Shown one piece after another: positions 42,573-60,237 of a DNA stretch of 64,000 nt. The notes under the pieces are model-generated. The model did no database searches and was not told the origin of the DNA. It saw only the letters and a program-made list of their open reading frames with translations. The DNA lies in NCBI RefSeq assembly GCF_014526325.1, contig NZ_JACNMJ010000003.1:1-64000 (forward strand). The letters are read 5' to 3'. Source of the DNA: Psychroserpens algicola. GTDB taxonomy: Bacteria; Bacteroidota; Bacteroidia; Flavobacteriales; Flavobacteriaceae. The position numbers were made by a program, and so were the translations under genes. Every line of letters starts with the position of its first letter. The stretch's first letter is position 1.

Positions 42573-42836
42573 GTGAAAAAAGAAGATTATAGACACATTA
42601 TTGTTGAAAGCTTTATCCCTGCCGATGCATCATCTAGACATGGTTTAGTTCACATTAAACCAGTTGCTAATCAAGAGCCATTTTTAGAATCTATGTTTGT
42701 GCAATGTTCCAAAGAACTCTCAACAGATTATCCAATAGGTACGAAGTTTAGAATTAAAGCTAAAATTACTAGTAGAGAAGGTGGTACTCCTTTTGTTTCT
42801 AGCCATTATACATGGAAATATGAAGTTTTGAAATGA
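42573..42836 (+). CDS. Small hypothetical protein (GTG start)
   Basis: This 87-residue protein uses GTG. No ATG lies near the N-terminus. The sequence alternates strands (YRHIIVESFIPA, GTKFRIKAKITSRE, PFVSSHYTWKYEVLK), suggesting a small beta fold, possibly OB-like. It overlaps the GNAT gene by 4 nt (ATGA). Function is unknown. Confidence 0.5.
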   Translation: MKKEDYRHIIVESFIPADASSRHGLVHIKPVANQEPFLESMFVQCSKELSTDYPIGTKFRIKAKITSREGGTPFVSSHYTWKYEVLK

Positions 42837-43234
42837 ACATAAAAGTAAAAAAAGTCAATTCTGAACTAATAATTAAATTAAAAAAGTGGTATCAACAATT
42901 TACTAATGAAGACAATAATAATTTGCGATTTAGGTTCGAAGAAGATACTTTTTATGTTGCCAAAATTGATGATGAAATAGTTGGAATATTAGGTTATGAA
43001 GATCATAATTCATTTTGTTGTGATTTCAAGAGGTTCGTTGTTCGTGAGTATAGAAATAAAAACATTGCTGAATTATTGCTAGATTTTTTAATTGTTGATG
43101 CAAGAATAAATAACAAAAGAGCTATTGATTGTACATTAAATTCTCATAACGAAAAAGGAATTAACTTCTTAACAAAAAAAGGATTTGATATTTCTAAAGG
43201 AGAGTTGAAGTGCTATGCTAAACTCAATCTTTAA
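42833..43234 (+). CDS. GNAT-family N-acetyltransferase
   Basis: This 133-residue protein has the GNAT fold: TFYVAKIDDEIVGILGYED (strands 2-3), then RFVVREYRNKNIAELLLDFL, which is motif A for acetyl-CoA binding (Q/RxxGxG/A is relaxed here to RNKNIA), and NEKGINFLTKKGF for motif B. The substrate is unknown. It is coupled to the preceding small gene. It ends 179 nt ahead of the defence operon. Confidence 0.75.
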   Translation: MNIKVKKVNSELIIKLKKWYQQFTNEDNNNLRFRFEEDTFYVAKIDDEIVGILGYEDHNSFCCDFKRFVVREYRNKNIAELLLDFLIVDARINNKRAIDCTLNSHNEKGINFLTKKGFDISKGELKCYAKLNL

Positions 43235-43327
43235 TTTTCCTAAATTGTATTAGGTCCAAAGCATGTGTTTTCTTAACTTTATTGACCCTAAGATTCCCCT
43301 TACTATTTTAATCAGCATTAATTGATA

Positions 43328-43355
43328 AGTTCACAACTTAATTACGGTGTGAATT
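43328..43355 (+). promoter_or_regulatory. Inverted repeat upstream of the defence operon, operator candidate
   Basis: AGTTCACA and TGTGAATT form an imperfect inverted repeat (core TTCACA at 43330-43335, TGTGAA at 43348-43353, 12-nt spacer) about 60 nt ahead of the first gene. It is the only such symmetry in the 179-nt gap. No strong TAnnTTTG is seen. A regulator for it cannot be named. Confidence 0.35.
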
Positions 43356-43413
43356 ATTATGATAATGAATGTTATTTATCGAAATTTGAGAATTATTTTA
43401 ATTAAATAAAACA

Positions 43414-46260
43414 ATGAACACCCAACAAGTAATAGATAAAATATTTAAGGACCCAGCAGTAAAATATGAGCTTTCAGAATTTGAAGGATTGGGTACTCCT
43501 ATACATGAAATGATTAATATCTATTCAAAGGATGGTACAGGAAGACAAACAGGAAAAAAGATTTATTACATCAAACCGTTAGCTCCCATGTATTCTGAAA
43601 AAGAAGAATTACAGGTTTATGTAGAAAACGGAAAATCTGCCCCAGAAGAAATTATTAGACAGTTATGGTTATTCAAACTTCTCAATTTCTATGGGTATAA
43701 TAAAGATCAGATAGTTTGTGAAATCCCTGTGCGATATGGAACTGAAGTAAATCCAAAAGGTGCTGATATTGCAGTTTATAGAGATAACTCTAAGGAGACA
43801 GTTAAGATTCTATTCGAAATTAAAAAACCTAAACGTAAAGATGGAATTGCTCAATTAAAGTCTTATTTGGGTGCTAATGGTAACCCAATTGGGGTTTGGT
43901 CTAATGGTACAGATCGTTTGATTCTATATAAGCCAAAAAATAAAGATTTTGATACACTTTCAGAAATACCTAAAGTTAATGAAGAAGAAAAAGATGTTTT
44001 AGAAATAAAAAGAACATTAACCCAACTTAAGACATCGTTCAATTTCAAAAAAATCATTCAAGATTTGGAAGAATTGGTTTTAGCTGATAGTGGTGTTGAT
44101 GAATTCAATGAAATTTTTAAAATCATTTTTGCCAAAATATGGGATGAAAAAGAAGCAAATGAAAATAAACGCACTAGACCGAATAAAGAGGTTGAGTTTA
44201 AGAAGTTTGAGGACCCAGAATTAACCTATGATAAAATAAATGGTTTATTTAAAAAAGCTTGTAATGAATGGCAAGGTGTATTTGAAGATAACGAAAATAT
44301 AAAATTAAGAAAAGACCACTTGCAAGTTTGTATTGGACCTGTTGAGCCTGTTCGATTAATGGGATCTAATTTAAGAATAATGGATGATGCTTTTGAGTAC
44401 TTATTACCAACAGAAGCGAAGAAAAAGAAAGGTCAGTTTTTTACACCAAGACATGTCATAGAAATGTGTGTTCGTATGCTTAACCCACAGGATGATGAAT
44501 ACGTAATGGATCCAAGTTGTGGTTCAGCAGGGTTCTTGCTTCATGCTATGGAATGGGCAGTTCCAGCAGATACAGTACAAGAGCAAGAGCTTCGCAAGCA
44601 TAGATATGCAGGCAAATACCTTTGGGGTATTGATTTCGAGGCGAGAGCAGCTAAAACTTCTCGTGCCTTAATGCTAATTGCTGGTGATGGACATACCAAT
44701 ATTTTCGGTCCTGATGTGAGCAGTATAGATCCGAGAACATGGTATACCACTAAATCAGGTCAATATTTAATGACTGAGTTAAGTAAAACTAAATTATTAA
44801 AAGCCAAAATTCCAGAAGGAGAAACTTTTAAAGATGATGATAAGGCTTGGGAATATTTTGGAGAAATGAATTTTGATGTCATTTTGGCAAATCCACCATT
44901 TGCTGGAGAAATGAAGAACAAAAAAATGCTCTCTCAATACGATTTGGCAAAACCTGCCATTAAAAGAGCAAAAGATAAGACCCCTAAAGAAGAACGAGAT
45001 GTTTTGTTTATTGAGCGTATTGTAAAAATGCTTCGTCCTGGTGGTAGAGCTGCAATTGTATTACCTCAAGGTAAATTTAACAACTCTTCTCTGGCATTTA
45101 TTAGAGAATGGATATTGCGCAAAGCACGGTTGTTAGGTGTAGTTGGTTTACATGGTAATTCTTTCAAGCCTCATACTGGAACAAAAACCTCAGTATTATT
45201 CATTCAGAAATATACAGATGAAGAATTAGCGGATATTATCAAGGTGCAAAAAGAAGTAGAAAGCAAATGCCCTGATTATGCTAAACAAATAGAAGATGTA
45301 TTAGCACAGTTTGAAGAAGAAATTGACATACCAGAAGATAAAATTGCAGAAGAGATTTTTGAATTGTTGCTGGAAGAATATCCAGAACCTGAAATTGAAG
45401 ACGAGACTACCGACGTTGATTCTGAAGAAGAGGAAGATGATGAAAGTAATGAGCCACTATCATTAGAGGATAAATTAGAAATCATTGATGAAAAAATAGA
45501 TGATTTAAAGAATGGTTTGCTCAAGGCAAAAACAAAATTAGCTGGTTTAGATGACGAGTTAGAAGCATTAAAACATACAAGAGATGCCGAATTAGAAATT
45601 GCTAAAGAGCGTTTTGATAAAGAAATAACATCACTTAATGAACAAAAGAAAAGTATTTCACTTTCTGGATTAAGTACAGACGAAAAAACTAAAGCGAAAG
45701 AATTTAAAGATAAGTTAACGGAAGATATTAAAACTCAAAGAGCAGCTAAAACACAAGAGCAAAAAGATATAAAAGCAAAGTATAAACTGAAAGAAAAAGA
45801 GCTAAAGGACAGCAGAATAAACCCTATTAAAAAGACTTTAAAAGCAGAAATAAAATTATTCGAAAAACAAATTCCTTTAGCAGAAGAAGAAAAACTATTG
45901 CTTACCAATAAGGGAAAATTACAACTGTTATTGAATAATGAGGATAGCATAGAAAAAATAAGAAACCGCTATATAGATGCAGAAGTAGCTAAACAATTAG
46001 ACTATCCTATTTTCATGGCAGTGAGCGAAAGAGGTGGTAAAAATAATAGTGGTGATTACGAATATATGCTAGATGATGATGGTAACCTCATAGAAGATGA
46101 TTTTGGTAACCCAGAAATAGACCAAGATTTAGTAAATCACAGCATTACAAGAGACGATTTATTAACCCCAGACTTTGATTTTGAAAAGGCAGACTTAAAC
46201 ATTGCGGAAGCGTTTGTACAGTTTTCTAAAGAGCAAGGTTTTGATTTTTGGAAAAATTAG
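43414..46260 (+). CDS. Type I-like DNA adenine methylase with N-terminal HsdR-type nuclease domain
   Basis: This 948-residue protein is about twice the size of a plain HsdM. Residues ~75-160 form an HsdR_N nuclease: Asp118 (GADIAVY), Glu135-Ile-Lys137 (FEIKKP) and the QxxxY motif Gln147-Tyr151, all intact. The HsdM helical domain follows, then the N6-adenine methylase with motif I MDPSCGSAGF (~366) and motif IV ANPPFAGE (~492). Residues ~640-860 are a very acidic then Lys/Glu-rich coiled coil. It starts the putative anti-phage operon and overlaps hsdS by 13 nt. It could both mark and cut DNA, with no separate HsdR motor present. Confidence 0.85.
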   Translation: MNTQQVIDKIFKDPAVKYELSEFEGLGTPIHEMINIYSKDGTGRQTGKKIYYIKPLAPMYSEKEELQVYVENGKSAPEEIIRQLWLFKLLNFYGYNKDQIVCEIPVRYGTEVNPKGADIAVYRDNSKETVKILFEIKKPKRKDGIAQLKSYLGANGNPIGVWSNGTDRLILYKPKNKDFDTLSEIPKVNEEEKDVLEIKRTLTQLKTSFNFKKIIQDLEELVLADSGVDEFNEIFKIIFAKIWDEKEANENKRTRPNKEVEFKKFEDPELTYDKINGLFKKACNEWQGVFEDNENIKLRKDHLQVCIGPVEPVRLMGSNLRIMDDAFEYLLPTEAKKKKGQFFTPRHVIEMCVRMLNPQDDEYVMDPSCGSAGFLLHAMEWAVPADTVQEQELRKHRYAGKYLWGIDFEARAAKTSRALMLIAGDGHTNIFGPDVSSIDPRTWYTTKSGQYLMTELSKTKLLKAKIPEGETFKDDDKAWEYFGEMNFDVILANPPFAGEMKNKKMLSQYDLAKPAIKRAKDKTPKEERDVLFIERIVKMLRPGGRAAIVLPQGKFNNSSLAFIREWILRKARLLGVVGLHGNSFKPHTGTKTSVLFIQKYTDEELADIIKVQKEVESKCPDYAKQIEDVLAQFEEEIDIPEDKIAEEIFELLLEEYPEPEIEDETTDVDSEEEEDDESNEPLSLEDKLEIIDEKIDDLKNGLLKAKTKLAGLDDELEALKHTRDAELEIAKERFDKEITSLNEQKKSISLSGLSTDEKTKAKEFKDKLTEDIKTQRAAKTQEQKDIKAKYKLKEKELKDSRINPIKKTLKAEIKLFEKQIPLAEEEKLLLTNKGKLQLLLNNEDSIEKIRNRYIDAEVAKQLDYPIFMAVSERGGKNNSGDYEYMLDDDGNLIEDDFGNPEIDQDLVNHSITRDDLLTPDFDFEKADLNIAEAFVQFSKEQGFDFWKN

Positions 46261-47630
46261 AAGAAGCTATGGCAGTTTGGAATACAGTAAATCTCACAGA
46301 AATTAAACCTGATAGGTTTGATGCAGAATATTTTAGAAAAGATTATCAGGATAATCTTTCATATCTAAATAAAACGGGTGGTACTTATAATTTAGGTCGT
46401 TTATTTAACCATATTAATAGAGGTTCTCAACCTTCATATGCTATTGATGGTACTATAAAAGCATTGCGTAGTGTTAATGTTGGATTTATGAACTTTAATG
46501 AAACCAGACAAGAATATGTAACTGATTCTTTTTTTGAAGCTAATAATAGAGGTCAAGTGCAAAGAGACGATGTTTTAATTACATCTACTGGAGTAGGAAC
46601 ATTAGGTAGAACAAGCGTTTGGTTTTATAATGATAAGGCATACTGTGATGGGCATATTACCATCTTGCGTAATGGAAGTGTTGATCCTTATTTTATTACA
46701 GCTTTTTTAAATTCTAAATATGGCTTACTTCAGTTCGACCAAAACTATAGAGGTTCAAGCGGGCAAATTGAAATCTATCCTTACGACATTTCCAAATTTG
46801 TAATACCTGAATGCTTATTCCCGTATCAACAAGAAACAGGAGATTATTTAAGAAAAGCATTTGAACTTCAACAAGAGTCTCAATCACTTTACCAAAAGGC
46901 TACAGAGTTACTAGAAACAGAATTGGGTTTGGATAAAATTACTTTTGAAAAGCCAAAAAGCTATACCGCAAGTTTTAGTGAGGTGGCATGTACAAGGCGT
47001 TTAGATTCTAATCACTTTCAACCTCAATTTAAACAATTGATTAATCATTTACAAGCAAATTTTGAATGTAAAAAAATTGGCTATATCACATCTTTAAATT
47101 CTAGAGGAGTTCAACCAACATATGTAGAAAATGGAGAATCTTTAGTCATTAATAGTAAACATCTTTCGGCTACCCATATAAAATATGATATTCTTGAAAG
47201 AACTTCAAAGGGTGAATTTGAGGCAAATTCTAAAGCACATATTTTCAAAGGAGATATTCTAATTTATACAACAGGAGCTTATGTAGGATTAACTAATGTT
47301 TATTTAGGTGAGGAAAAAGCTTTAGCAAGTAATCACGTTAATATTTTAAGACTCAACGATTATAGTATAGATACCACTTATCTAGCATTAGTATTGAATA
47401 CTACAATAGGTAAACTTCAAACCAGTCAACACATTAGAGGAAGTGCACAAGCAGAGTTGTACCCTAATGATATTGCGAAGTTTATTGTTCCAATTATTAG
47501 TGAAGATAAAATGGAAGCCATTGGAAATCTTGTTAGAAGTAGTTTAGAAAATAGTCAATCGGCTAAAATTCTTTTAAAGAAAGCCAAAAATAGAGTGGAA
47601 GAAATAATAGAAGAAGCTGCAAAAAAATAA
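46248..47630 (+). CDS. Type I-like specificity subunit (HsdS)
   Basis: This 460-residue protein contains two target-recognition domains. Both show the typical layout: xGTIKALRSVNVGF / GESLVINSKHLSA, then DVLITSTGVGTLGRTSVW / DILIYTTGAYVGLTNVY, and SSGQIEIYPYDI / GSAQAELYPNDI. Helical spacers (~200-225 and ~435-458) separate them. It would define a bipartite methylation target for the adjacent methylase. It starts inside the methylase gene; a second Met at 46269 is a possible start. Confidence 0.9.
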   Translation: MEKLEEAMAVWNTVNLTEIKPDRFDAEYFRKDYQDNLSYLNKTGGTYNLGRLFNHINRGSQPSYAIDGTIKALRSVNVGFMNFNETRQEYVTDSFFEANNRGQVQRDDVLITSTGVGTLGRTSVWFYNDKAYCDGHITILRNGSVDPYFITAFLNSKYGLLQFDQNYRGSSGQIEIYPYDISKFVIPECLFPYQQETGDYLRKAFELQQESQSLYQKATELLETELGLDKITFEKPKSYTASFSEVACTRRLDSNHFQPQFKQLINHLQANFECKKIGYITSLNSRGVQPTYVENGESLVINSKHLSATHIKYDILERTSKGEFEANSKAHIFKGDILIYTTGAYVGLTNVYLGEEKALASNHVNILRLNDYSIDTTYLALVLNTTIGKLQTSQHIRGSAQAELYPNDIAKFIVPIISEDKMEAIGNLVRSSLENSQSAKILLKKAKNRVEEIIEEAAKK

Positions 47631-47636
47631 AATGAT

Positions 47637-47822
47637 ATGGCACAAACAGACAAGGAGTTATTGCAAGAACTCTGCACTCAATATAATGTAGGGTTTGACA
47701 AGGTAGAAAAATTGTTAGCTACAGTTAAAGAGTATCAATTTAAAGACAACCGCAGAGGAGTTTATGATGCTTTAAAAGAAATTATTAAGTCAGACCTTAA
47801 AAAAGCAAGTAATGAAGTTTAA
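47637..47822 (+). CDS. Small operon protein of the defence system
   Basis: This 61-residue, charged, helical protein (LLQELCTQYNVGFDKVEKLL, then RRGVYDALKEIIKSDLKKAS) lies 6 nt behind hsdS. It overlaps the DndD-like gene by 11 nt, so it is translated as part of the operon. No family is recognised with certainty. A bridging or regulatory role between the methylase and the ATPase modules is possible. Confidence 0.7.
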   Translation: MAQTDKELLQELCTQYNVGFDKVEKLLATVKEYQFKDNRRGVYDALKEIIKSDLKKASNEV

Positions 47823-49800
47823 TAAACTAACCATTGAAAACTACAAGTCGTTTCAATACCCAACTTCTATTGAGTTTCCTCAAAGTAGTGAGGGTAAAAG
47901 TATCTTTTTAGTAGGTGGTATGAATGGGGCTGGGAAAACGTCTATTATGGAAGCCGTAAATATTTGTCTGTATGGTACTAAAACAGATTTTTTATACAAG
48001 TATATCAACCGAAAAGAATTAGCCAAAGGCAATGCTTTTGTTTCTTTTGAATTAGAATTAGAAACAGACGAGCAAGAAACTATATTAATCAATAGGTCTT
48101 GGAGTGCTGGTGCTACAGAAAATCCAAGGCATAAAGATTTATCCGAAAAATTAGTAGTTGTTAAAAATGGTAAACGTGTAAGTGTTCAAAACAAAGAAAT
48201 GTGGCAAGATTATATCAATGCTACAATACCGCAAGGCATTACACAATTCTTCTTTTTTGATGGAGAAAAAATACAAGAAATTGCAGCAGACGACCATTCA
48301 GAAGTACGTCTTAAATCGTCTTTAGAAGCAGCATTGGGTATTCAGTATATTTCTCGCTTATCAAGTGATGTATTGTACTTGAAACAAGAAGAACGCAAAG
48401 GATTTGTAGAGATTACAGATGAAGATATTACGTTTAAGGAAAGTGAGTTAAAAAAAGAACAACGTAAGCTCACTAACAAAAAACAAGAAAGAGATGACCT
48501 ATCGTTAGAATTAGAGCGTTTTAAAACAGATAAGGAAGAAGCACAAGCAAGGTTTAAAGCTATTTTTAACTTAGATCCTGAATCTTCAGAAGTAATAAAG
48601 CAAAAAGAAAAAAAACGCATTCAATTATCTAATAAAAGCAATCAGTTAGATAATCAAATAAAGATCCTCACAGAACGATATTTACCTTGGGCATTAGCAG
48701 GAAAACTATTTGATGATGTAAAAAAACAAATAAATATAGAAAGTCAAAGTAAAAAACAAGATGTTATTTCAGAGAATGCTGATGCATTGGCTCAAAAAAT
48801 TGTAGAGAACTTTGATGTACCAGAACCTATAACAGCAGAGCCACTTACCTCAAGTCAAAAAGAAAAATTACACCAAAGAGTTTTAAGTTTATTACAAGAA
48901 AATAAGTCGACAGATGAAGTGGTTAAAATATTGAACTTATCAGACAGAGACACCGCAAAGATTTTGAATAAGATAGAAGAGATAGAACAAAGTGATGTTT
49001 TATTACTAGAGGACTTAATAAAAGAGAAATCAGAATTAGATTTCGAAATTCGCTCTATTCAAGCCAGTTTAGAAACCTCTGGCACATCTGATAGTGAAAA
49101 AGAGTTGTTTGAAGAGTTACAAAGCACCATTGAAGGCTCTAATACCCAAATAGGAAGGCTATCTGTACGTTTGTCTAATTTAAATGAAGAATTAGTTCAG
49201 ATTGAGAATAAAATCAAGGAAATTGAATTAGAGATTGGTAAACTATATGAAAGACATAATTTCTCTAAAGAGAAGGTTGATTTCATTGAGGAATGTGATG
49301 CGATTGCAAATTTAATGATGAGCTATAAAGCAAAACTAAGAAGGCAGAAAGTAAAGTTGCTTGAAGAAAAAACTTTCGAAATGTACAAAATGCTTTCAAG
49401 TAAATCAGGTTTAATAAAGGACCTGGAAATTAACAACAAAACCTATGAAATTAAGATACGAGATAAGAGCGGTCACGAAATGAAAAAATCTGGTTTATCT
49501 GCAGGTGAAAAAGAAGTATTTGCTTTGTCTTTACTTTGGGGCTTAGCTCAAACGTCTCAACTTAATTTACCTATTGTTATAGATACACCATTATCCAGAT
49601 TAGATAGCGTTCATAGAGATAATATTGTAAATCATTACTTCCCTAATGCAGCAACCCAAGTGGTTATATTATCAACAGATACCGAAGTGGATAACAATTA
49701 CTTTAAGAATTTGGAGCCACATCTCACAGGTGCTGCACGTTTAGAGTTTAGTCAAAACAATGAATTAACCACCGTAAAAGAAGGTTACTTCTGGAATTAA
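47812..49800 (+). CDS. DndD-like SMC/RecN-type ATPase
   Basis: This 662-residue protein has an ABC-ATPase head split by a long coiled coil (~180-520). The Walker A is GGMNGAGKT (~35-43), the Q-loop region FFFFDGEKI, the signature LSAGEKE (~560), the Walker B LPIVIDTPLSRLD (~586) and the switch LSTDTEVD. Length and motif spacing (GMNGAGKTSIMEAVNICLYG) match DndD of phosphorothioation systems. None of the sulfur-inserting enzymes is encoded nearby. It probably binds DNA and couples ATP turnover to recognition of modified or foreign DNA. Confidence 0.85.
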   Translation: MKFNKLTIENYKSFQYPTSIEFPQSSEGKSIFLVGGMNGAGKTSIMEAVNICLYGTKTDFLYKYINRKELAKGNAFVSFELELETDEQETILINRSWSAGATENPRHKDLSEKLVVVKNGKRVSVQNKEMWQDYINATIPQGITQFFFFDGEKIQEIAADDHSEVRLKSSLEAALGIQYISRLSSDVLYLKQEERKGFVEITDEDITFKESELKKEQRKLTNKKQERDDLSLELERFKTDKEEAQARFKAIFNLDPESSEVIKQKEKKRIQLSNKSNQLDNQIKILTERYLPWALAGKLFDDVKKQINIESQSKKQDVISENADALAQKIVENFDVPEPITAEPLTSSQKEKLHQRVLSLLQENKSTDEVVKILNLSDRDTAKILNKIEEIEQSDVLLLEDLIKEKSELDFEIRSIQASLETSGTSDSEKELFEELQSTIEGSNTQIGRLSVRLSNLNEELVQIENKIKEIELEIGKLYERHNFSKEKVDFIEECDAIANLMMSYKAKLRRQKVKLLEEKTFEMYKMLSSKSGLIKDLEINNKTYEIKIRDKSGHEMKKSGLSAGEKEVFALSLLWGLAQTSQLNLPIVIDTPLSRLDSVHRDNIVNHYFPNAATQVVILSTDTEVDNNYFKNLEPHLTGAARLEFSQNNELTTVKEGYFWN

Positions 49801-49810
49801 AGAATAGATT

Positions 49811-51337
49811 ATGGCTGATAGATTATATACATCACTAAGAACAGACGAAATTATAAGTACACTCAGAGCAAACACCAAATTGGATAAAGCAATTTTGGCT
49901 CGTATGGCATTTTCCTATTCTTTGGTGAACACTGGTAAGAATGTTGCACGTAGCACAAATTTTTCAGGGGGTGAGATGAAAAGGTCAACGTTTGTAGCAT
50001 CAGATGAAGTTTTTTTGAAAGCATTGATAAATCAAGTTCATAGACCCGAAGACTTAGATGAGCCTCTTTTTTACAGTAATAAGAGTATAATCAAGAACCA
50101 TATAGACGATGGGGCTGAACTCTTATGGGATTTATTTAAGAAAAACGGGGAAGATGTCTCAAGATGGTACTCAGATGTTGTGTCTAGTATTAACCTGTCA
50201 GGAGCTAAAAAATTAAAAACAAAAGACTTAGATATATTTATTGGCAGAGATATTCTGCACAATAACGATTTGATTATGGCATTAAATGATACTGCTATTC
50301 ACGCTAATTCTCATTTGGCAATCATGGGAAAACCTGGTGTAGGAAAAACACAGTTTTTATTAAAAATTTTAGCGGATATTAGGGTCCAATCAGATTATCA
50401 AACCAATTTTATATTTTTTGATTACAAGGGCGATGTTGTTGATAATGAAGCTTTTATAGATGTCTCACGAGCAAGAACATATAAGCTATTGCAAAACAAT
50501 GAGTACTTACCTATTAGTCCTTTCATTCTATCAGATTACAATGAACAAGATATACAATTATCTGCAAGAGAAAAAGCAGAGAGCTTTGCTTCTATCAACT
50601 CAAAACTTGGTGTAGTACAAAAGGGAGCTTTGACAGAAGCTATTATAGGAGGCTATGCAGCGAGAGCATCATCCGATAGGTCTTTTCCTGACTTCAATGA
50701 TGTATTAGAATTAGCATTAGCAGCCTATGAAGAAGAAGGGAAGAGAGATGATTCATTAATTGAAGTATTGAGAGATTTAGCAAATTTCAATTTGTTCTGG
50801 TCTCACGGTTCTAGTTTGCCACCAATGGAAAAAATTAGTAATCGCACAATGATTATTGATGTCCATAAAATGCCTGTACTAAAAGAATTGATAGGGTATT
50901 TGGTAATTGAGCGTTTGTATAAAGAAATGGCTTCATTACCTGATAGTCCAATTAAAGATGGCAGAAGGACATTGAGAACTCTTCTAGTAATTGACGAGGC
51001 TCATAATTATTTGGGACAAAAAAATATCTTTTTGGAGAAAATTATACGTGAAGGTCGCTCAAAAGGAATCGTGGTATTCTTTGCTTCACAATCACCATCA
51101 GATTATCAGCAGAAGTTTTTCAACTTTCAAGAGCTTTTGGAGTTCTCATATATTTTCCAAAGTGAGGGAGCATCAGCAAAAGCTATTCAAGATATTTTAG
51201 GTTGTAGCAACAAAACAGCAAAGGATTTGCAGTCGGAAATTGCAAAACTCGAACCTTTTCAAGTAATAAGCAGAAGCAACATAAAAACAGATGAATTTAT
51301 GAAGTTTACAGCGGAACCATTTTATAAAAATTATTAA
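49811..51337 (+). CDS. DndE-like domain fused to a HerA/FtsK-type ATPase
   Basis: This 508-residue protein has an N-terminal domain (~1-110) that follows the DndE pattern: I-x-x-L-x-x-x-T-K-L then ARMAFSYSLV, a short loop, EVFLKALINQVH, then IIKNHIDDGAELLWDL. DndE binds nicked DNA and normally is a separate ~110-residue protein. The HerA-like motor has Walker A MGKPGVGKTQF (~172-182), Walker B LLVIDEAHNYLG (~392) and the sensor FFASQSPSDY. It lies 10 nt behind the DndD-like gene. The fusion is inferred from pattern, not from alignment. Confidence 0.78.
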   Translation: MADRLYTSLRTDEIISTLRANTKLDKAILARMAFSYSLVNTGKNVARSTNFSGGEMKRSTFVASDEVFLKALINQVHRPEDLDEPLFYSNKSIIKNHIDDGAELLWDLFKKNGEDVSRWYSDVVSSINLSGAKKLKTKDLDIFIGRDILHNNDLIMALNDTAIHANSHLAIMGKPGVGKTQFLLKILADIRVQSDYQTNFIFFDYKGDVVDNEAFIDVSRARTYKLLQNNEYLPISPFILSDYNEQDIQLSAREKAESFASINSKLGVVQKGALTEAIIGGYAARASSDRSFPDFNDVLELALAAYEEEGKRDDSLIEVLRDLANFNLFWSHGSSLPPMEKISNRTMIIDVHKMPVLKELIGYLVIERLYKEMASLPDSPIKDGRRTLRTLLVIDEAHNYLGQKNIFLEKIIREGRSKGIVVFFASQSPSDYQQKFFNFQELLEFSYIFQSEGASAKAIQDILGCSNKTAKDLQSEIAKLEPFQVISRSNIKTDEFMKFTAEPFYKNY

Positions 51338-51342
51338 AGCAT

Positions 51343-53097
51343 ATGTTAAGCGCAAATAAAGAAAAACTAAATTCATTTTTTACAGGAACAGCTCAATATC
51401 AAATACCTTACTTCCAAAGATCTTATGTTTGGAATATTGATAATTGGGTGCAGCTATGGGAAAACCTGAGAGAAGAATTAAAAGCTTACCAGGATGAGAA
51501 TATAGAAAACAGTGAGCATTTCATCGGCACTATCATAGTTAAGCAAAAAAACAGCGAAAGATTGGGAGCACTTGAATATGACCTAATTGATGGACAGCAA
51601 AGACTCACTACAATCTGTCTTGTTTTACGATCTATTCATGATGCTACAAAAGATGATAAATTAAGTAAATATATAAAGTCGCTGTTAAGTTTTCAAGATT
51701 CATATGGAGAGGACAACATACGGGTTGTTCATAGTAAAATAGACAAACAATATTTTCAAGAAATCTTACTATCATTAGATTCTAATAGCTCTCTTAATGA
51801 GCATTTTCAAGAGGAAAACTCAAACTTTGAAAAATTTAATAATATTGAAGGGTCATACCTCTTTTTTAAATCAAAAATAGAAGAAGAACTAGAGGAAAAA
51901 GACTTAAGAGACTTGGTAAATGTCGTTCTATCAAAGCTGCCAGTTATCCATATGGCTCTATCTAAAGATGATGATGTTCAACAAATATTTGATACAATCA
52001 ACTCTCTTGGTGTTAAGCTTACCACAGCTGAATTACTGAAAAATCATTTGTTTGCTTTTGAAGCGGTACAACCATATTATAAAGAGTATTGGGAAGATAT
52101 TTTTGAAGCGGATGAGGATGCTATTAGTTTTTGGAGTAGAGAAAGAACGGCAGGTCGAAATAGAAGAAGTGCAGTAGAGCTGTTTTTGTATAGTTACCTA
52201 GTTATTAAGACAGCTGGAGTAATTAGAATTGATTCATTATTTAAAGAATATAAATCCTATCTAAAAAACTTATCGGATAAAGAAAAAATTGCTTTTTCTA
52301 AAGATCTAAGTGAATATGCTGTTATCTATGCACTATTTCCAGATGGAGAAAACTTGTCTCAAATGAGTTATTCTGAAAATGAAAAACGTTTTATGCATAT
52401 TCTCAGGGAATTGGAAATTTCAACAGCTTTTCCTTTAATTTTATTCATATACAAAGAGGTAACGGATATAAAAGAAAGAATATCCATTTTAAAATTTTTA
52501 GAAAGCTATTTAGTACGCAGAACAATCTGTAGATTAACAACTAAAAATTATAACAATCTTTTTATATCATTACTTAGAGAATTAAAAAGTAAAGACTCAA
52601 TAACGTTATCTGTACTTAGAGATAAAGTAATGTCTTATGATGATGATTCATCTCGTTTCCCTAATAATCAAACATTAGAACACGCCTTAAATAACAAGTA
52701 CCTAATAAATAAGTTTAGTCGAGAAGTATTGTACTGTATAGCTTTATACCATTTGAATAATGATTTTCAAGATACTAATAAATTAAGTTTTGATGGATTT
52801 AGTGTTGAACACATTATGCCCAAAAAATGGAGAAATAATTGGAGTAATCCAGTCGGTTTATCAGATGAAGAAAGGGACTATAAACTTCTCACATTAGGAA
52901 ATCTTACATTACTTCAAGGGAAATTAAACAGCTCTCTTCGAGATGCTAATTGGACTATTAAAAAAGGGGCTCTACAAACCTATTCCACTCTTCGCATCAC
53001 TACTGATTATTTAAATAATGATGAATGGAATGAATCTATTATTACGGCAAGAACTAATGACTTGTATAAGGATATAATCAAAATATGGAATGATTAG
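51343..53097 (+). CDS. DUF262-DUF1524 nuclease (SspE/GmrSD-like)
   Basis: This 584-residue protein has an N-terminal DUF262 domain: PYFQRSYVWNIDNW, FIGTIIV and the nucleotidase motif DGQQR (Asp83-Arg87) with following LTT. A helical middle precedes a C-terminal DUF1524 HNH region with FSVEHIMPKKW (His490) and LLTLGNLTLLQGKLN. This is the architecture of the Ssp system effector SspE and of GmrSD type IV restriction enzymes, which sense modified DNA and nick or cut. It lies 5 nt behind the HerA-type gene and is the likely effector nuclease of the operon. Confidence 0.87.
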   Translation: MLSANKEKLNSFFTGTAQYQIPYFQRSYVWNIDNWVQLWENLREELKAYQDENIENSEHFIGTIIVKQKNSERLGALEYDLIDGQQRLTTICLVLRSIHDATKDDKLSKYIKSLLSFQDSYGEDNIRVVHSKIDKQYFQEILLSLDSNSSLNEHFQEENSNFEKFNNIEGSYLFFKSKIEEELEEKDLRDLVNVVLSKLPVIHMALSKDDDVQQIFDTINSLGVKLTTAELLKNHLFAFEAVQPYYKEYWEDIFEADEDAISFWSRERTAGRNRRSAVELFLYSYLVIKTAGVIRIDSLFKEYKSYLKNLSDKEKIAFSKDLSEYAVIYALFPDGENLSQMSYSENEKRFMHILRELEISTAFPLILFIYKEVTDIKERISILKFLESYLVRRTICRLTTKNYNNLFISLLRELKSKDSITLSVLRDKVMSYDDDSSRFPNNQTLEHALNNKYLINKFSREVLYCIALYHLNNDFQDTNKLSFDGFSVEHIMPKKWRNNWSNPVGLSDEERDYKLLTLGNLTLLQGKLNSSLRDANWTIKKGALQTYSTLRITTDYLNNDEWNESIITARTNDLYKDIIKIWND

Positions 53098-53115
53098 TAT
53101 ATGAGTTAAAAAAAT

Positions 53116-56100
53116 ATGAATGTAGGACTAATTAAATGGTTTGATAAAGAGAAAGGGTTCGGGATGATAGGAACCTTCAAAAGAAAGGAATGTTTTCTTC
53201 ATGTAAATAATTTTGAAGATGTTCTAGATAAATTATTAATAGGTACTGCAGTAATATTTAATGAAAGGTTTGATAAAAAAAAGAACAGAAGCTCAGCATC
53301 AAAATGCAGGATAATAAACACAATTGATGATTGGTACATTTTATTCGATAATATTAATTTATTTGATGTTGTTGAATATGAAGTGAAATACAAAAACACT
53401 TCTCGTTGGAAAACTTATTATACAAAAGAAAAAAGATCAAGAAATATTCTTAAGTCAGGTGCATACCAATTATTCTCTAAGCAGATCGAAATTGGTGATA
53501 AGGTAACAGATCTGTGGTTGGATTATTACGAGGGTAGGCTAAAAGAAAATCATTATTATAAATTTATTTCAATTATTGACTATGCCTTAGATTGTCTCAA
53601 GGATAAGGACTTAAGAGATGGTATAAAGACAAGGTTGTTTTTACAATTTGGCAGAAATAAAACCAATAAACTTATTCTTAACTGTTGGCAAAATAATAAT
53701 ATGCAATTCATAGGTCTGGATAATGATGATGAATTGAATGAAGCGTTTTTCTCAAAGGTATCTGATGATCTTAGTTTGGAAGATTTAAAAAAAATATATG
53801 AATTAAGTTTTGGACCTGAATTTTGCAAAGAATATTCTATTAATAAGATCAATAGTCTTAGCCATGACAATGACTTTGATTTGAAAGCTTTATTTTTTGA
53901 AAAAAACTATAATTATTTGGAATTTATTGGGGACGAGAAAAAAGGTGAATATAGGACTAAAATTGATGATATTTATTTTGACTTAAAAAGGGATCTCATT
54001 TTGTCCAATGCTGAAGAATTGAATGAAATCAATGACCTATCAGGCTATAATAAATATAGAGATCTTTTTTATTTGATACCTGACGAAATAAACAATATTA
54101 AGAAAACTGAATTAGAAAATATTGTCAAAAATATAATGTTAAAAAAATGTTCAAAATCTTTCTTACCTGAATTATGGTTTAAAGGAATGGTTGAAGACAT
54201 AACCTTTAACGAAATTGAAGAATTATTTTTTAAAAAAGAAAATTCATCAGCTAACAGAATAAAAATATTAAAAAGGCTTGATGAAGAAGAGGTTGAAAAT
54301 CTATTTTCAAGTTATATTCAAAATAATGATATTGAAAATTCATTTACTTTTTTAAAGAATCTTATTAAAGGGAGTAATTCCTTCCCATATGAATTTAATT
54401 ACGAAAATTCCTTTCATGAAAGTGAATTTTGGCTTGACAAAAAGTTTGGTTTTTTAATACCCATTTTAAAAAAATACATTTTTGAAACCACTAGTGAAAA
54501 TGAAAAGTATGAATTGTTTTTCAAGAATATCGTTAAAGATATTCCACAGCAAATCGTTTTAAAAAGAATAAAAGAATTAGAAATCAGTGATCTATATAAG
54601 ATATTAGATAGCTTAAATGACCAAGATCAAGAATTTATTCATAAAGTCATTTCTATAAAACATAGTGAAATGGATTTGTACGATTTGGATAGAATTTTAA
54701 AACACACTTGTGAAGAAGAGTTCATTTTAGATTTGATAATTAAAAAAATAGGATTATTAAATGATGATAAATATGAATATTTATATGATATCGCAATTAA
54801 ATATTTAGGAGATAGCAGATTCAAGAAATTTGATAAACAAGTTAAAATTGAAATAAATCCTGAAACCTATTTTAAATTATGGGAAGCTGGAAGAGGAAAA
54901 ATATATCCCTTAAATTATTTAAAGGGGATATTAGCAGATGATAAAATAATCTATGATCAAATTGAAATTTGGATAAAGGATGAAATAATATCACAAGAAG
55001 AGATTAATAAGTTCATAGAATCACTTTTAGTCGTACAAAAACCTATTACTGATAGAACGATATTCTACACCTACTATAACCAAATATCTTATTTACTGGG
55101 CGTTGATCACAACCATGTAAACATTATACGTGACTTTAAAAATGAATTTTATAATATCATTATATGGTTTTTAGGGTTTGAAGAAAAATTAAATTTTGAA
55201 TTACTTAAATCGAAGTTTGTTTATTTTTCACCACATGATCAGGTTATAATCATTAAAAGACTCTTTTATCTTAAGCGTAAAAATGAATTTGATCTTACAC
55301 TTGATAAATTAGATGATCTAACAAAAATCGATCTAGATCTATATAAGCTTAATTTTAAGTTTAATCCATCTATTCCACTAGATATTTCAACAGATGTTGT
55401 TATTCAATCATTAAAATCATTTAGAGATAAAAAAAGTTTCATTTTAGAGGGAGAAGTATTGAAAATCGTGCTTGAAGACATAAGCAATGCTAAAAAAACA
55501 AAATTTAAATTAGATAATTATTTTGAAAATTGTTTTGGTCGCACACAAGTGAAATATGATTGGAAAACTAACGGGAAAATTTCAAAACAGAAATATGATA
55601 ATAACCGTTTTTATTTTAAAATTCAATTTGAATATAGCGAGAGTTTAGTTGAAAAAATACGAAAACTACCTGGTAGAAAATGGAACGGAGATGAAAGTCA
55701 TTGGGGAGTTCCCTCTAAATACGAAAAAGAAGTTTTAGAATTCGCAAAAGAAAATAAATTCTTTCTAGATTTAGAAGGCAGCAACTATATCAATAATCCA
55801 CATTTAGCAGACTTTGAATTAGGCTCAATTCCAAATGGGATAAAATTTTGTGAAGGTAGATTAGCAAACAAAAAGGACAATTTATTTAATAAAGAGTTTT
55901 GGTGGTGCAAAGGAGATAAATGTTATGATAATTGTAAAAGCATTAACCCAATTACTGAAAATGAATTAACTCTATTAAACTTCTGTGAAATATTAGGATT
56001 TAATACAGATGAAGTAAATGGTATGGGAGATTTAATACCAAATGGATTTTATTATAGATTTTTAGGTCAAATAAATCGATTTAATAGACTTTTGGACAAA

Positions 56101-56625
56101 ATGTATTGTTCTGATTGTGATGAAATTTTGCATCCTGTAGAAACCTCTCATTTTGCCGCACATACTGTTGTTAGATTTTGCTGTATGAATGAGATGTGCA
56201 CTAAGCATGAAGAGCAAGTGTATTTAAATCATTGTTTAAATGGTAAGTGTAATAATGTTATAGATAGTCGTATTTCTAAAAAATGTAAGAATGGGTTATA
56301 TATATGTGATAACTGTGGAAGTTGTTGTTCTCACAATATGTTTCAAAGGAGGTTGTCTAGTTTAAAATCAACAGGAGGGTATATACATCCAAGCCTAGCA
56401 AAAATCATTGATAACAAATTAGGACACTTAGAAAGAGCTGAATATTTTTGTCATAAATGTAGTTTAGTAATGAAGGAGATCCAACATGATGTATTTCATT
56501 GTTCTGACTGCGATATAACTTATAATACTATTAAGTATAGATTAAAAAGACCCCATAGAGATTTAAGACGTCAAGGATCATCAAATATTGAAGAAATTGG
56601 AGATGATTTTGATTTACCATATTAA
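53116..56625 (+). CDS. Large cold-shock-domain, HARP-like, zinc-ribbon protein
   Basis: This 1169-residue protein has a cold-shock domain at ~1-67 (GLIKWFDKEKGFGMIG, RNP-like GFG and FLHV). The long middle (~80-800) is AT-rich-coded, helical and unrecognised. Residues ~830-880 resemble the HARP motif of SMARCAL1 (FEYSESLVEKIRKLPGRKWN ... WGVPSKYEKEVLEFAKE). Residues ~905-1140 contain many Cys in CxxC pairs (YCSDCDE, ICDNCGSCC, FCHKCS, HCSDCD), so several zinc ribbons. It is the last gene of the operon, 18 nt behind the DUF262 gene, and probably binds nucleic acid. No catalytic motif is seen. Confidence 0.7.
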   Translation: MNVGLIKWFDKEKGFGMIGTFKRKECFLHVNNFEDVLDKLLIGTAVIFNERFDKKKNRSSASKCRIINTIDDWYILFDNINLFDVVEYEVKYKNTSRWKTYYTKEKRSRNILKSGAYQLFSKQIEIGDKVTDLWLDYYEGRLKENHYYKFISIIDYALDCLKDKDLRDGIKTRLFLQFGRNKTNKLILNCWQNNNMQFIGLDNDDELNEAFFSKVSDDLSLEDLKKIYELSFGPEFCKEYSINKINSLSHDNDFDLKALFFEKNYNYLEFIGDEKKGEYRTKIDDIYFDLKRDLILSNAEELNEINDLSGYNKYRDLFYLIPDEINNIKKTELENIVKNIMLKKCSKSFLPELWFKGMVEDITFNEIEELFFKKENSSANRIKILKRLDEEEVENLFSSYIQNNDIENSFTFLKNLIKGSNSFPYEFNYENSFHESEFWLDKKFGFLIPILKKYIFETTSENEKYELFFKNIVKDIPQQIVLKRIKELEISDLYKILDSLNDQDQEFIHKVISIKHSEMDLYDLDRILKHTCEEEFILDLIIKKIGLLNDDKYEYLYDIAIKYLGDSRFKKFDKQVKIEINPETYFKLWEAGRGKIYPLNYLKGILADDKIIYDQIEIWIKDEIISQEEINKFIESLLVVQKPITDRTIFYTYYNQISYLLGVDHNHVNIIRDFKNEFYNIIIWFLGFEEKLNFELLKSKFVYFSPHDQVIIIKRLFYLKRKNEFDLTLDKLDDLTKIDLDLYKLNFKFNPSIPLDISTDVVIQSLKSFRDKKSFILEGEVLKIVLEDISNAKKTKFKLDNYFENCFGRTQVKYDWKTNGKISKQKYDNNRFYFKIQFEYSESLVEKIRKLPGRKWNGDESHWGVPSKYEKEVLEFAKENKFFLDLEGSNYINNPHLADFELGSIPNGIKFCEGRLANKKDNLFNKEFWWCKGDKCYDNCKSINPITENELTLLNFCEILGFNTDEVNGMGDLIPNGFYYRFLGQINRFNRLLDKMYCSDCDEILHPVETSHFAAHTVVRFCCMNEMCTKHEEQVYLNHCLNGKCNNVIDSRISKKCKNGLYICDNCGSCCSHNMFQRRLSSLKSTGGYIHPSLAKIIDNKLGHLERAEYFCHKCSLVMKEIQHDVFHCSDCDITYNTIKYRLKRPHRDLRRQGSSNIEEIGDDFDLPY

Positions 56626-56634
56626 TTCAAACAG

Positions 56635-57822
56635 CTAATATTTATTAGTAAATTCTATATTTAATCTTTGGATCTCTGATTTATAAAGATGATAGTATTT
56701 TTTTATAGTATTAAGGCTTTGATTTGTTATTGATTGAATGCCTTTTTGAGTAATTTTCCCCATAGTTTCAAAATCCCAATCATAAATTGTCCTTTCAATT
56801 ATCATTTTTGATTTCTCAATTCTACCCTTATTAATAAGCTTCATCATCTCACTCTTCCTCTGAGAAACACTTAGTTGGTAATCTTTACTATAAACATACC
56901 TTCGAGTTTTATTCATAATAGCAGGGATGTTTTTTATTTTCATGACACTTTCAGTTATTTTCCTTATTTTAAAATTATGCAGTGGTGGATGGCATTGTTC
57001 CTGATTTACAATCTTTAATAAATTGTATAGTGTCTTAAGATTTACTTTAGGGTTTAGTGCTCTTACTTGATAAGCATATCCGCACAAGCCATTATTTCTA
57101 TATCCCTCTTGGTAACCTCCAAATGGGATATACGCATCTGCATACTTAATTTTCTGTTTAAAATCATAAATGACCTCCCCATCAAATTCGACATTCTCGA
57201 TAAGCTCGTCTATATTGTCAAATCTTAGATTATGATATTCAGAGCCCATTACAGTCCCTATAGTATTTTTAGTTTTTTTAATACTGTAATGGTCTTTTTT
57301 TGAAATAGCTATAAATGTATCCGAATTATTATTTAAATACAGATAAGGGTCATAGGATAATACATTTACTTGAGTAGTTTTTCTCGCCCCCTTATCGCTA
57401 TTAATGTTTAATTCACTACTTATATCATTATAGGTATTAGAGAAATTAGCTTTATTCAATCCATCTACTTTTACCAGAACACCTCTCCCATGACCTGATA
57501 AGGATAACCAAGATGCAAATATCAAGGGGTTGCCTAATTCAATTTCTACGTTATCATCAATATCTATATAGATATAACCTGAAGCTCTTTTAATTGTATC
57601 ATTACTCCTGATTTTGTTAAAGGTGAAGTTTAAAGAGTAACAAGGAAGATTCGTTAACTTAAATGAGGTATAACCTTCTGAGTTTGTTTTATATATTTCC
57701 CTTGCAGCTAAGATTTTATTTGAATACTCACTACCGTCTTTAACTAAGCTAATAAACTGTTCGGGTGTAATGCTTCCTTGAACAAGGCTTGAAGATTTTA
57801 TGTTAGTAAAACAATTAAACAT
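56635..57822 (-). CDS. VirE-N / primase-like mobilisation protein
   Basis: This 395-residue protein resembles the BT4734/BF3469-type VirE N-terminal proteins of Bacteroidota elements. GYIYIDIDDN (acidic, palm-like) is followed by ASWLSLSGHGRGVLVKVD and SYDPYLYLN. A C-terminal helical part (KITQKGIQSITNQSLNTIKK) suggests a small HTH. It probably serves replication or transfer of the excised element. It overlaps the excisionase-like gene by 8 nt and is convergent with the defence operon, with only 9 nt between stops and no terminator. Confidence 0.75.
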   Translation of the reverse strand: MFNCFTNIKSSSLVQGSITPEQFISLVKDGSEYSNKILAAREIYKTNSEGYTSFKLTNLPCYSLNFTFNKIRSNDTIKRASGYIYIDIDDNVEIELGNPLIFASWLSLSGHGRGVLVKVDGLNKANFSNTYNDISSELNINSDKGARKTTQVNVLSYDPYLYLNNNSDTFIAISKKDHYSIKKTKNTIGTVMGSEYHNLRFDNIDELIENVEFDGEVIYDFKQKIKYADAYIPFGGYQEGYRNNGLCGYAYQVRALNPKVNLKTLYNLLKIVNQEQCHPPLHNFKIRKITESVMKIKNIPAIMNKTRRYVYSKDYQLSVSQRKSEMMKLINKGRIEKSKMIIERTIYDWDFETMGKITQKGIQSITNQSLNTIKKYYHLYKSEIQRLNIEFTNKY

Positions 57823-58093
57823 TTTTGCCTCCTTTCATGGAATTGAAAATATCTTCCTTACGATAATATACTCTTGTACCAATACTGTATGGAATTAAGA
57901 CTTTGTTTTTAGCCCAATTATTGAGTGTTACCTTGCTTACTTGTAGCATTTCAGCAACCTGATTTCTTGTTAATATATCAGGGATGTTAGATTCAAATTC
58001 TGGTTTTTGGAAATTGGTATTTTTAATTATTATTTCTTCAAACTTTTCAATAAGTTCCCTAATCGAGACTTGCTCAATTTCTACTTTTCTCAT
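57815..58093 (-). CDS. Excisionase-like helix-turn-helix protein
   Basis: This 92-residue protein has a MerR/excisionase-type HTH: LTRNQVAEMLQVSKVTLNNW, then the wing IGTRVYYRKEDIFNSM. Such proteins direct excision together with tyrosine integrases in Bacteroidota elements. It is the first gene of a two-gene unit with the VirE-N-like gene. The upstream 328 nt contain four 13-nt repeats that it may bind. Confidence 0.8.
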   Translation of the reverse strand: MRKVEIEQVSIRELIEKFEEIIIKNTNFQKPEFESNIPDILTRNQVAEMLQVSKVTLNNWAKNKVLIPYSIGTRVYYRKEDIFNSMKGGKNV

Positions 58094-58421: not shown

Positions 58422-59735
58422 TTAATTAAAAAAAGGATGAGTTGCCGTTTTAATTGCTCTTTGTAGGCTACTCGCTTTAACATAAAGTAAAAATGTTCGC
58501 TCATTTTTGTGTCCTGTTGTAAGCATTATGTCTTGAATGGGTACACCTGCTAAATATGCATTAGAACTGTAGCTTCTTCTAGCTGAATGATTTCCTATTA
58601 GTTCGTATTTCTTTTTCGATATTTGTTTTTTTATCCCTCCTTCTGTTCTCTCTAAGATTTCATCAGAATCGACTTTTGCTAAACGGGCTACTTCTTTAAT
58701 AGCATAATTTATGTGCTGCTCAGGCATTTTTTTTGGTGGGTGACCATTTCTTTTATTCAGAATGTTAATTACCATAGTTTTTAGAGGTACAGTTACTGGT
58801 TTTTGAGTCTTTTTTATAACAATTTGAATAAACTTTTTTCCTTCTGCTTCAATAATGTTGTTTTTCGCTAAACGATTAAAGTCACTAACTCTCAATCCAG
58901 TATTAGCAGATATTAAAAATAAATCTCTAGCAGTATCAAGTTGCTCTGGTGTAAGGTATAGAGATTTGCTTATTTTGATTGGTTTAATATTTTTAAGTTC
59001 CACATTGTATATGTTTTCCAATTCATCAGGAGTTAAATAAACGTGGTTGACTTCTTCATAAGGTTTTTTAAAGTACTTTTTTAGATGCTCTCTATTGTCG
59101 TGATGTTCAAGTTCTAGACTAGCATTTAAAATAGTTTTTAGATTTTTAATTTGAGTGCCTATATAGTTTGTTGAATAATCCTTTTCATGTAACCATTTTA
59201 AAAAATCTCTGTAAAACTTCTGTCCAATTTTCTCAAATGATATTCTATAGTTTTGTTCTTCGTTAAATCTTTTCAATATTTTGCGAGAATTCTTATATGT
59301 AGATGCAGTTCCTTTAGCAAGCACCTTTCCAGAAGACATTAAGGGGTTCTTTTGGTAAAAATCGATATACCATTTATAAAATTCTAGTAATTCCAATTTC
59401 TCAACTTCATCTTCAACTTGCTTTCTTCCAAGAACTTTGTCACATACATCCTTTAATAAATCATCAGTTAATTCTTTACCTTCCTTGATTACTCTATTTC
59501 CATAGAAACTGTTAATAGCTAATTGTAGTTGGTCAAGCTTACCATTTATCTCAACTCTATCGAGCTCTTCTATAACATTTTTGACACGTTCTGTATTGGC
59601 ATTCCAATTCTTTTTATTTTGAACACGATACTTAGTAGCGTATCTCAATCTCTTTTCCTTGCCATAGTTGTAAACAATAATAATTGAAGCTGCATTTCCT
59701 TTAGCGTGACGAAGTTTGAAAGATAATTTTGGCAT
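58422..59735 (-). CDS. Tyrosine-type integrase of the island
   Basis: The frame is open from 59765, but MPKLSFKLRHAKGNA at 59735 is the usual start of Bacteroidota phage-type integrases (437 residues). A -7 element lies at 59770-59763. N-terminal arm-binding and SAM-like core domains (~110-215, with TASTYKNSRKILKRF) precede the catalytic domain. Catalytic residues are Arg in NTGLRVSDF, a Lys in KTQKPVTVPL, HxxR in GNHSARRS, His in TTGHKNERTF and the nucleophile Tyr in LLYVKA. It lies next to attR and would insert the island into tRNA-Arg. Confidence 0.93.
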   Translation of the reverse strand: MPKLSFKLRHAKGNAASIIIVYNYGKEKRLRYATKYRVQNKKNWNANTERVKNVIEELDRVEINGKLDQLQLAINSFYGNRVIKEGKELTDDLLKDVCDKVLGRKQVEDEVEKLELLEFYKWYIDFYQKNPLMSSGKVLAKGTASTYKNSRKILKRFNEEQNYRISFEKIGQKFYRDFLKWLHEKDYSTNYIGTQIKNLKTILNASLELEHHDNREHLKKYFKKPYEEVNHVYLTPDELENIYNVELKNIKPIKISKSLYLTPEQLDTARDLFLISANTGLRVSDFNRLAKNNIIEAEGKKFIQIVIKKTQKPVTVPLKTMVINILNKRNGHPPKKMPEQHINYAIKEVARLAKVDSDEILERTEGGIKKQISKKKYELIGNHSARRSYSSNAYLAGVPIQDIMLTTGHKNERTFLLYVKASSLQRAIKTATHPFFN

Positions 59736-59762
59736 TACTATTAAATTTATGATACATAGATA

Positions 59763-59815
59763 CAAAAATAAAGTGACACATTTATGGTTTTTTGTGTCAT
59801 AATTTGTGTCACTTT
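59763..59815. promoter_or_regulatory. Integrase promoter with GTGTC inverted/direct repeats, right arm-site candidates
   Basis: The minus-strand -7 element TATTTTTG (59770-59763) overlaps AAAGTGACACA (59770-59780), an exact inverse of TGTGTCACTTT (59805-59815). A further direct half-copy TTGTGTCA lies at 59792-59799, 12 nt from the last. ATTTGTGTCACTTT (59802-59815) equals the left-end copy at 39142. It can serve both as integrase arm sites and as autoregulatory operator. Confidence 0.55.
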
Positions 59816-59951: not shown

Positions 59952-59972
59952 ATCCTGTCGAGGTCACGAATA
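59952..59972 (+). repeat. attR: right 21-bp direct repeat of the island
   Basis: This is identical over 21 bases to 39073-39093, the tRNA-Arg 3' end. It lies 186 nt from the integrase frame. The copy is a tRNA fragment only and is not preceded by the rest of a tRNA, so it marks the far end of the insertion. Confidence 0.92.
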
Positions 59973-60080: not shown

Positions 60081-60237
60081 TAGTAAATTCCATCAGTTTT
60101 TATTTTTTAATTATTTTCAAAGTTGAGCTTTATCTGAATGAGAAAAGCTAACTTAGCTATAGAGAAATAAAAAACGAACATTAAATAAAGCTTATTTGAA
60201 TTTAATATTCTGATTTTTTGTTTTATATGCACGATAT

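Follow-up and report, generated by a model that had tools for sequence, protein, structure and literature searches.

A predicted adenine restriction-modification pair joined to a Dnd-type chassis in a conserved five-gene core from a mobile element of Psychroserpens algicola

The window analysed here is a stretch of 64,000 nucleotides from Psychroserpens algicola, a member of the Flavobacteriaceae (NCBI RefSeq assembly GCF_014526325.1, contig NZ_JACNMJ010000003.1, positions 1 to 64,000). Seven consecutive open reading frames (ORFs) on its + strand span positions 43414-56625, and their junctions are, in order, an overlap of 13 nt, a gap of 6, an overlap of 11, and gaps of 10, 5 and 18. A first-pass annotation, made from the sequence alone, had described an operon with overlaps or gaps of at most 18 nt, and the measured junctions are as it stated. 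We called protein domains with Pfam, PADLOC and NCBIfam models, and the part identities that the annotation had given to the seven proteins were matched in these searches. The genes are the following:

43414 to 46260, + strand: M, a predicted PD-(D/E)XK nuclease-N6-adenine methylase fusion with long C-terminal helices (Pfam N6_Mtase and HSDR_N_2)
46248 to 47630, + strand: S, a specificity subunit (Pfam Methylase_S)
47637 to 47822, + strand: sp, a 61-residue homologue of the DndC C-terminal tail and proposed adaptor (PF20306)
47812 to 49800, + strand: D, a DndD ABC-type ATPase (TIGR03185)
49811 to 51337, + strand: EH, DndE fused to a HerA/FtsK translocase (PF08870, PDB, Foldseek)
51343 to 53097, + strand: G, a GmrSD-type DUF262-DUF1524 protein, accessory here (Pfam GmrSD_N and GmrSD_C)
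53116 to 56625, + strand: C, a 1169-residue protein with a cold-shock domain and a cysteine-rich composition, accessory here (cold-shock domain model)

The first two genes have the make-up of an adenine restriction-modification (R-M) front end. M scores 123 bits with N6_Mtase and 63 bits with HSDR_N_2 (cut-off 25), and S scores 35 bits with Methylase_S. The closest PDB relative of M is RM.BsaXI (7.3e-43, profile positions 231-664), and BsaXI is also the best Foldseek match of the predicted M structure, with a whole-chain template modelling (TM) score of about 0.3. BsaXI consists of a nuclease-methylase polypeptide and a separate specificity subunit. We call M a nuclease because of the HSDR_N_2 match together with conserved residues: E135, Q147, Y151 and NPPF are present in all 29 alignment rows, and D118 and K137 in 28. 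Only the L009 row departs from this, and its gene is truncated where the stretch begins. M may itself supply the nuclease activity. Its model also contains two long helices, 684-746 and 755-828, which could form a coiled-coil arm.

The fourth and fifth genes belong to the Dnd repertoire. D reaches 385 bits with TIGR03185, above the cut-off of 245.85. The DndE part of EH scores 39.6 with PF08870 (cut-off 25) and 37.4 with TIGR03184, under that model's 71.85, and is fused to a HerA domain that is closest to DndH in PADLOC. In the PDB, EH matches DptH (7es4, 3.3e-36) and DndE (7x4e, 1.7e-6), and 7es4 is again the best Foldseek match (1.6e-23) of its AlphaFold2 model, whose predicted local distance difference test (pLDDT) score is 89.6. 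The Walker A motif GxGKT and the DEAH motif are conserved in 30 of 30 EH rows.

Between S and D lies the small gene sp. Its product matches PF20306 (Sp-DndD), a family whose label already ties these small proteins to some Dnd systems, at 46 bits (4.4e-12). Three models named for DndC, two of PADLOC and TIGR03183, match it as well, always at their C-terminal tail: PADLOC DndC at 5.8e-7 over model positions 405-459 of 481, and TIGR03183 at 2.6e-4 over positions 397-446 of 447. When the sp family, leaving out its member in locus L130, was aligned to a 10-sequence DndC profile with hhalign, the match fell on the tail (Prob 95.4, E 6e-9), and of 10 sliding windows of this comparison only the two covering the tail gave more than 1%. 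Judged by these profile comparisons, sp is homologous to the DndC C-terminal tail, and it is a probable DndC-tail adaptor. A match of TIGR03183 confined to the tail was found in 21 of 31 genomes, the window's own being counted among them; for the window, L007 and L008, coordinates were used to compare its place with that of sp. In L130 (6325-11258) a 374-residue DndC lacks the tail, and sp is a gene of its own (65 residues) ahead of DndD and DndE-HerA; ORFs of 170 and 432 residues come next, the latter taken for DndB by its position. Such a split into DndC and a tail gene is a possible intermediate form.

The annotation had noted that IscS, DndC, DndB and HsdR were missing. In the whole genome (3.80 Mb, listed as 100% complete), nothing exceeds the cut-off of the HsdR model TIGR00348, two weak partial matches scoring 31 and 24 bits, and the only match to the DndC model is the tail-like one at the sp gene. 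DndB is absent from the operon, and the genome-wide searches included neither IscS nor DndB. The absence of HsdR is less puzzling because M has a nuclease domain of its own.

Relatives were collected with a DndE-HerA search, one genome per species, which returned 64 loci, many of them draft contigs with split genes. The search demands near-exact peptide words, and the 64 loci therefore sample close relatives; best-segment identity was 61-88% in 58 of them. Thirty-nine loci contain DndD together with 5 kb or more of upstream DNA; M was found in 33 of them, S in 31 and sp in 37. All five core genes (M, S, sp, DndD and DndE-HerA) were present in 30 of these 39 loci, representing eight phyla, and the order M-S-sp-D-EH, with sp between S and D, was kept in 30 of 30. 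With the requirement relaxed to at least 1 kb upstream of DndD, sp was present in 46 of 49 loci; those lacking it are L042, L062 (which has a full DndC) and L063 (which has a 63-residue ORF scoring best with a DndC model). The expectation that the ordered set would recur elsewhere was thus borne out for the first five genes and failed for G and C, which had no tblastn match in any of the 64 loci, and the annotation's seven-gene unit has to be given up. The five-gene system is rare and patchy. Across 395 genomes of the window's phylum, the Bacteroidota, a close DndE-HerA was found in the window's own genome only, the next best being 37% identical, and the other genomes of the genus that were examined (n=22) contained no close DndD, two having matches of 27-28%. 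Relatives of EH in plasmids (14 records, best listed identity 34%) and in phages (3 records, 21-26% identity; viral contigs were not searched for EH) included no close one.

Co-inheritance was assessed in 24 loci with five full-length genes, out of 65 examined including the window. Distances correlated at 0.93 for M-D, 0.93 for M-EH and 0.95 for D-EH, and those of sp correlated with M, D and EH at 0.75-0.81. For S the corresponding values were 0.39-0.46, and its mean pairwise identity was 0.29, compared to 0.70-0.73 for M, D and EH. None of 2000 permutations gave a value as high as any observed correlation, those of S included. The machinery is inherited as a unit while the specificity subunit diversifies.

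Trees were built for DndD (35 rows) and EH, with the rows of both chosen by hand. In the DndD tree, the 20 methylase-type rows form one clade (100/99) and DndC-type rows lie on several sides of it; the 10 DndC-type rows formed one group in 0 of 200 bootstrap trees. The 16 methylase-type rows of the EH tree stay together as well (99/99). L040 was counted as methylase-type from sp and c0 (an accessory gene described below) only, its contig ending 1.8 kb upstream of DndD. Divergent DndD-HerA pairs stand behind DndC in L062, L091 and L089. In L063, L090 and L093 they stand behind proteins of 666-874 residues with helix-turn-helix (HTH), helicase-associated or HNH-associated repeat domains. Upstream of DndD, these three loci showed no modification enzyme and had small tail-like ORFs whose scores with sp or DndC models are 18-28 bits.

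As read from gene content and homology, the joining of a Dnd-type chassis to an adenine R-M front end is real and conserved. We consider it fairly probable that genes one to five work together in defence, as a restriction-modification-like system composed of an adenine R-M front end, a Dnd-derived engine and a DndC-tail adaptor. The Type IIB-like nuclease-methylase M, together with S, would mark self DNA at adenines, while the engine, made of the DndD ATPase and the DndE-HerA translocase, would scan or pump DNA. The sp protein would serve as the docking piece between M-S and DndD, a role that the DndC tail would have had for the sulfur enzyme, and when the motor met unmarked DNA, the PD-(D/E)XK nuclease of M would cut; protection against phages is the presumed outcome. 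Most likely, methylation replaced sulfur on the Dnd scanning chassis and the tail was kept as adaptor. A replacement of sulfur by methylation on Dnd-type ATPases had been suggested in the first-pass annotation, and this part of its proposal gains from the sp-DndC tail homology, from the co-inheritance of M, DndD and DndE-HerA, and from the tree.

Several observations weigh against this proposal. M or S went undetected in 9 of the 39 loci, one of which, L042, also lacks sp; several of the 30 five-gene loci contain split genes; and the window is without c0. Shared descent lies partly behind the distance correlations, and the weaker correlations of S likewise beat all 2000 permutations. The BsaXI sequence match is limited to the methylase part of M, and the predicted M structure is of moderate quality (pLDDT 73.9). 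Regarding sp, the ORF that follows the tail-less DndC of L132 is 70 residues long and has no sp match, and PF20306 missed the one tail-bearing DndC that was scanned and compared by eye (L101). The DndD tree is rooted on two outgroup ATPases, which we take to be CxC-type, and several of its DndC-type branches are long. With such a root and such branches, sp could be either a relic of DndC or a small protein that was later fused to DndC.

It is tempting to go one step further, and we do so tentatively, giving the idea somewhat less than an even chance. The Dnd engine could be a modification-agnostic chassis to which different front ends can be attached by a single adaptor, the DndC tail, which would make the present system a relative of Type II restriction arising from a sulfur-marking system. 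The front ends would then be a sulfur enzyme with its tail (L091, L062), a sulfur enzyme with a separate tail (L130) and an HTH-type protein with a tail-like ORF (L063, L090, L093), to which the present locus would add a Type IIB-like adenine R-M pair with the tail.

If M-S holds the parts of a BsaXI-type enzyme, does it need the Dnd genes at all? It could be a self-sufficient Type IIB-like R-M pair that happens to adjoin a DndD-DndE/HerA module with a function of its own, and indeed DndD-HerA occurs with no detected M or S in six divergent loci (L062, L063, L089, L090, L091 and L093), all of which have DNA upstream of DndD. We regard such independence as unlikely, given the constant order and correlated inheritance across eight phyla and the position of sp between S and D in every five-gene locus. 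Still more doubtful is a single system of all seven genes, in which the GmrSD protein would be a sensor-nuclease and the cold-shock protein an additional effector. Its appeal lies in the gaps of just 5 and 18 nt and in a terminator scan of 42800-57000, which gave one site, inside D, and none in 49800-56625 (the scan carries little weight, since shuffled sequences average 4.4); the lack of G and C matches in all 64 relative loci speaks against it. That the locus carries out phosphorothioation with a DndC from another part of the genome, M-S contributing a second mark, is very improbable: DndD and DndE are phosphorothioation parts, and DndC is above the cut-off in 4 of the 31 genomes and just below it, at 276 bits, in one more, but none is at or near the cut-off in the other 26, and the window's own genome, listed as complete, has the tail-like match only.

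Under the favoured five-gene reading, G and C would be extra genes added downstream in this strain, and they look accessory because none of the 64 relatives matches them. A neighbour of this kind may have been missed in some loci, since at least 2 kb of DNA downstream of DndE-HerA was available in 51 of the 64 and at least 5.3 kb in 42. G scores 129 bits with GmrSD_N and 75 with GmrSD_C. The annotation had likened it to SspE, a kinship that is not favoured by the PADLOC scores (Orf5 282 bits, HEC-06 201, SspE 75). In 146 genomes near the window's, the search for G relatives returned its own copy and then at most 28% identity among full-length matches. The sole recognised domain of C is the cold-shock domain (27.2, cut-off 27), and many cysteines are invariant in a 5-row alignment. 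Relatives of C were not found in viral contigs and were found in six stretches (L095-L100). In L097 (3366-11262) the relative follows JetD and an SbcC-like protein in a Wadjet-like setting, in L100 (5580-19396) a partial one lies among PglZ and an Eco57I-type methylase in a BREX-like setting, and in L095 one is near an FRG protein. The single large neighbour scanned in each of L096 and L098 is not a defence gene, and in L099 the C relative, the only protein scanned there, has no Pfam match. C may, quite tentatively, be a defence-linked accessory.

Accessory genes of other kinds accompany the core elsewhere. The gene c0 is present in 24 of the 39 loci, mostly adjoining sp, and its products share an N-terminal part and have a changeable C-terminal part. 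Of the 27 c0 proteins in the cluster 14 were scanned; at E 0.01, 6 of them matched RAMA and 7 matched Mrr_N, with some of these matches under the curated cut-off. RAMA has been proposed as a reader of N6-methyladenine (6mA), with mixed biochemical evidence in the parts of the source consulted (PMC11037411). Of the 39 loci, 14 have RhuM-type genes, intact or fragmented, and 4 have DarT with Macro genes; the labels of these split slots, c1 (RhuM) and c5/c7 (Macro, DarT), come from a Pfam scan of one member each. The pair of DarT and a Macro-domain (DarG-like) protein lies upstream of sp in L021 (5469-7160), L019, L026 and L046, and in L021 and L026 it is placed between S and sp. The window has neither RhuM-type nor DarT/Macro genes, and has G and C after EH instead. 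Downstream of DndE-HerA, L050 (11532-14980) carries HamA and a helicase gene directly adjoining, and L002 a DUF4357/RAMA protein. The notion of a general effector slot after EH was weak: 10 other first downstream genes were scanned, of which 4 had no Pfam match and 6 were varied, with no nuclease.

How does the locus compare to named systems? With Type IIB enzymes such as BsaXI, M-S shares the nuclease-N6-methylase fusion, the conserved catalytic residues and the separate S subunit; it differs in its link to DndD, DndE-HerA and sp, and the match covers the methylase part only. Type I R-M differs in its HsdR motor subunit, for which the window's genome has no match above the TIGR00348 cut-off. 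The PADLOC models mad2, mad5 and mad8 of the methylation-associated defence system (MADS) are matched by M, S and EH (91, 99 and 72 bits), whereas the presence of DndD sets the locus apart, and membership in MADS was rejected on the NCBIfam cut-offs (MAD2 250.8 versus 720, MAD5 123.5 versus 400). With Ssp (SspABCD-SspE) the locus shares the DUF262-DUF1524 plan common to G and SspE; on the other hand, G prefers Orf5 and HEC-06 to SspE, and SspB, SspC and SspD are not the best match of any operon gene, nor were they listed for any of the seven proteins (PADLOC best 25 for proteins 1, 2 and 4; the genome as a whole was not searched for them). PADLOC also keeps a bin, 'DMS other', for mixed DNA-modification systems; individual proteins here match its models of such parts, but the bin is loose, whereas the core is ordered and co-inherited, and PADLOC system rules were not applied.

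The nearest published arrangement is that of Rakesh, Aravind and Krishnan (2024; PMC10853773), who, in the portion of the paper covered here, describe a DndE-HerA fusion next to an ATPase related to DndD, report cytosine methylases for CxC-type systems, and raise the idea that systems without DndC might use another modification. The present locus likewise pairs a DndD-type ABC ATPase with a DndE whose fused HerA domain is related to that of DndH. It differs in that the genome lacks DndC apart from the tail match, the operon lacks DndB, and an N6-adenine M-S, not a cytosine enzyme, stands in front together with a stand-alone DndC tail. The annotation knew of no named system with this gene set. 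Our searches of open-licence papers, which took in parts of PMC10853773, PMC12839542, PMC12707154, PMC5608340 and PMC11037411, likewise brought up neither a name for the M-S-sp-DndD-DndE/HerA core nor a statement that sp corresponds to the DndC tail; reference 24 of PMC10853773 lay outside both searches, and the PADLOC and DefenseFinder system rules outside the search for a name. PMC5608340 was considered as a published methylome of a strain with DndD and Type I genes and set aside, the portion covered reporting no Dnd genes.

The operon resides on a 20.9-kb integrative element (window 39073-59972) inserted in the 3' end of a tRNA-Arg gene (39014-39088), with these further features:

39073 to 39093, + strand: left attachment site, 3' end of tRNA-Arg (empty site in a congener)
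56635 to 57822, - strand: primase-like gene (BT4734-like_N and PriCT_1, both under the curated cut-off; PADLOC RTasVirE-PriCT2 68 bits)
57815 to 58093, - strand: HTH/excisionase-like gene (HTH_17; PHROG excisionase and regulator 7.5e-9)
58422 to 59765, - strand: tyrosine integrase, adjoining the right repeat (Phage_integrase; PHROG integrase 1.8e-22)
59952 to 59972, + strand: right attachment site, an exact 21-nt repeat (congener alignment resumes at 59946)

In the congener genome (G433), alignment at 94% extends to 39093; it resumes at 59946, with 77% there and 83% from 61055. The two matches overlap by 26 nt, which is the repeat, and the congener therefore has an empty site. Window positions 60133-61054 are unmatched in it apart from short overlaps, and a 285-residue ORF (60238-61095) lies in this largely unmatched stretch, just right of the right attachment site.

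The idea that the DndDE core serves modifications beyond sulfur thereby acquires a defined five-gene case with a candidate adaptor. If our reading is right, the locus would offer a hint at how DndC connects to DndD and an example of a swap of the self mark, and it would stand for a compact kind of R-M, linked to a motor, whose range takes in at least eight phyla. Should the Dnd engine prove to be a chassis for interchangeable front ends, this system would be an ATP-motor-driven relative of Type II restriction that keeps a molecular fossil of its sulfur-marking ancestor.

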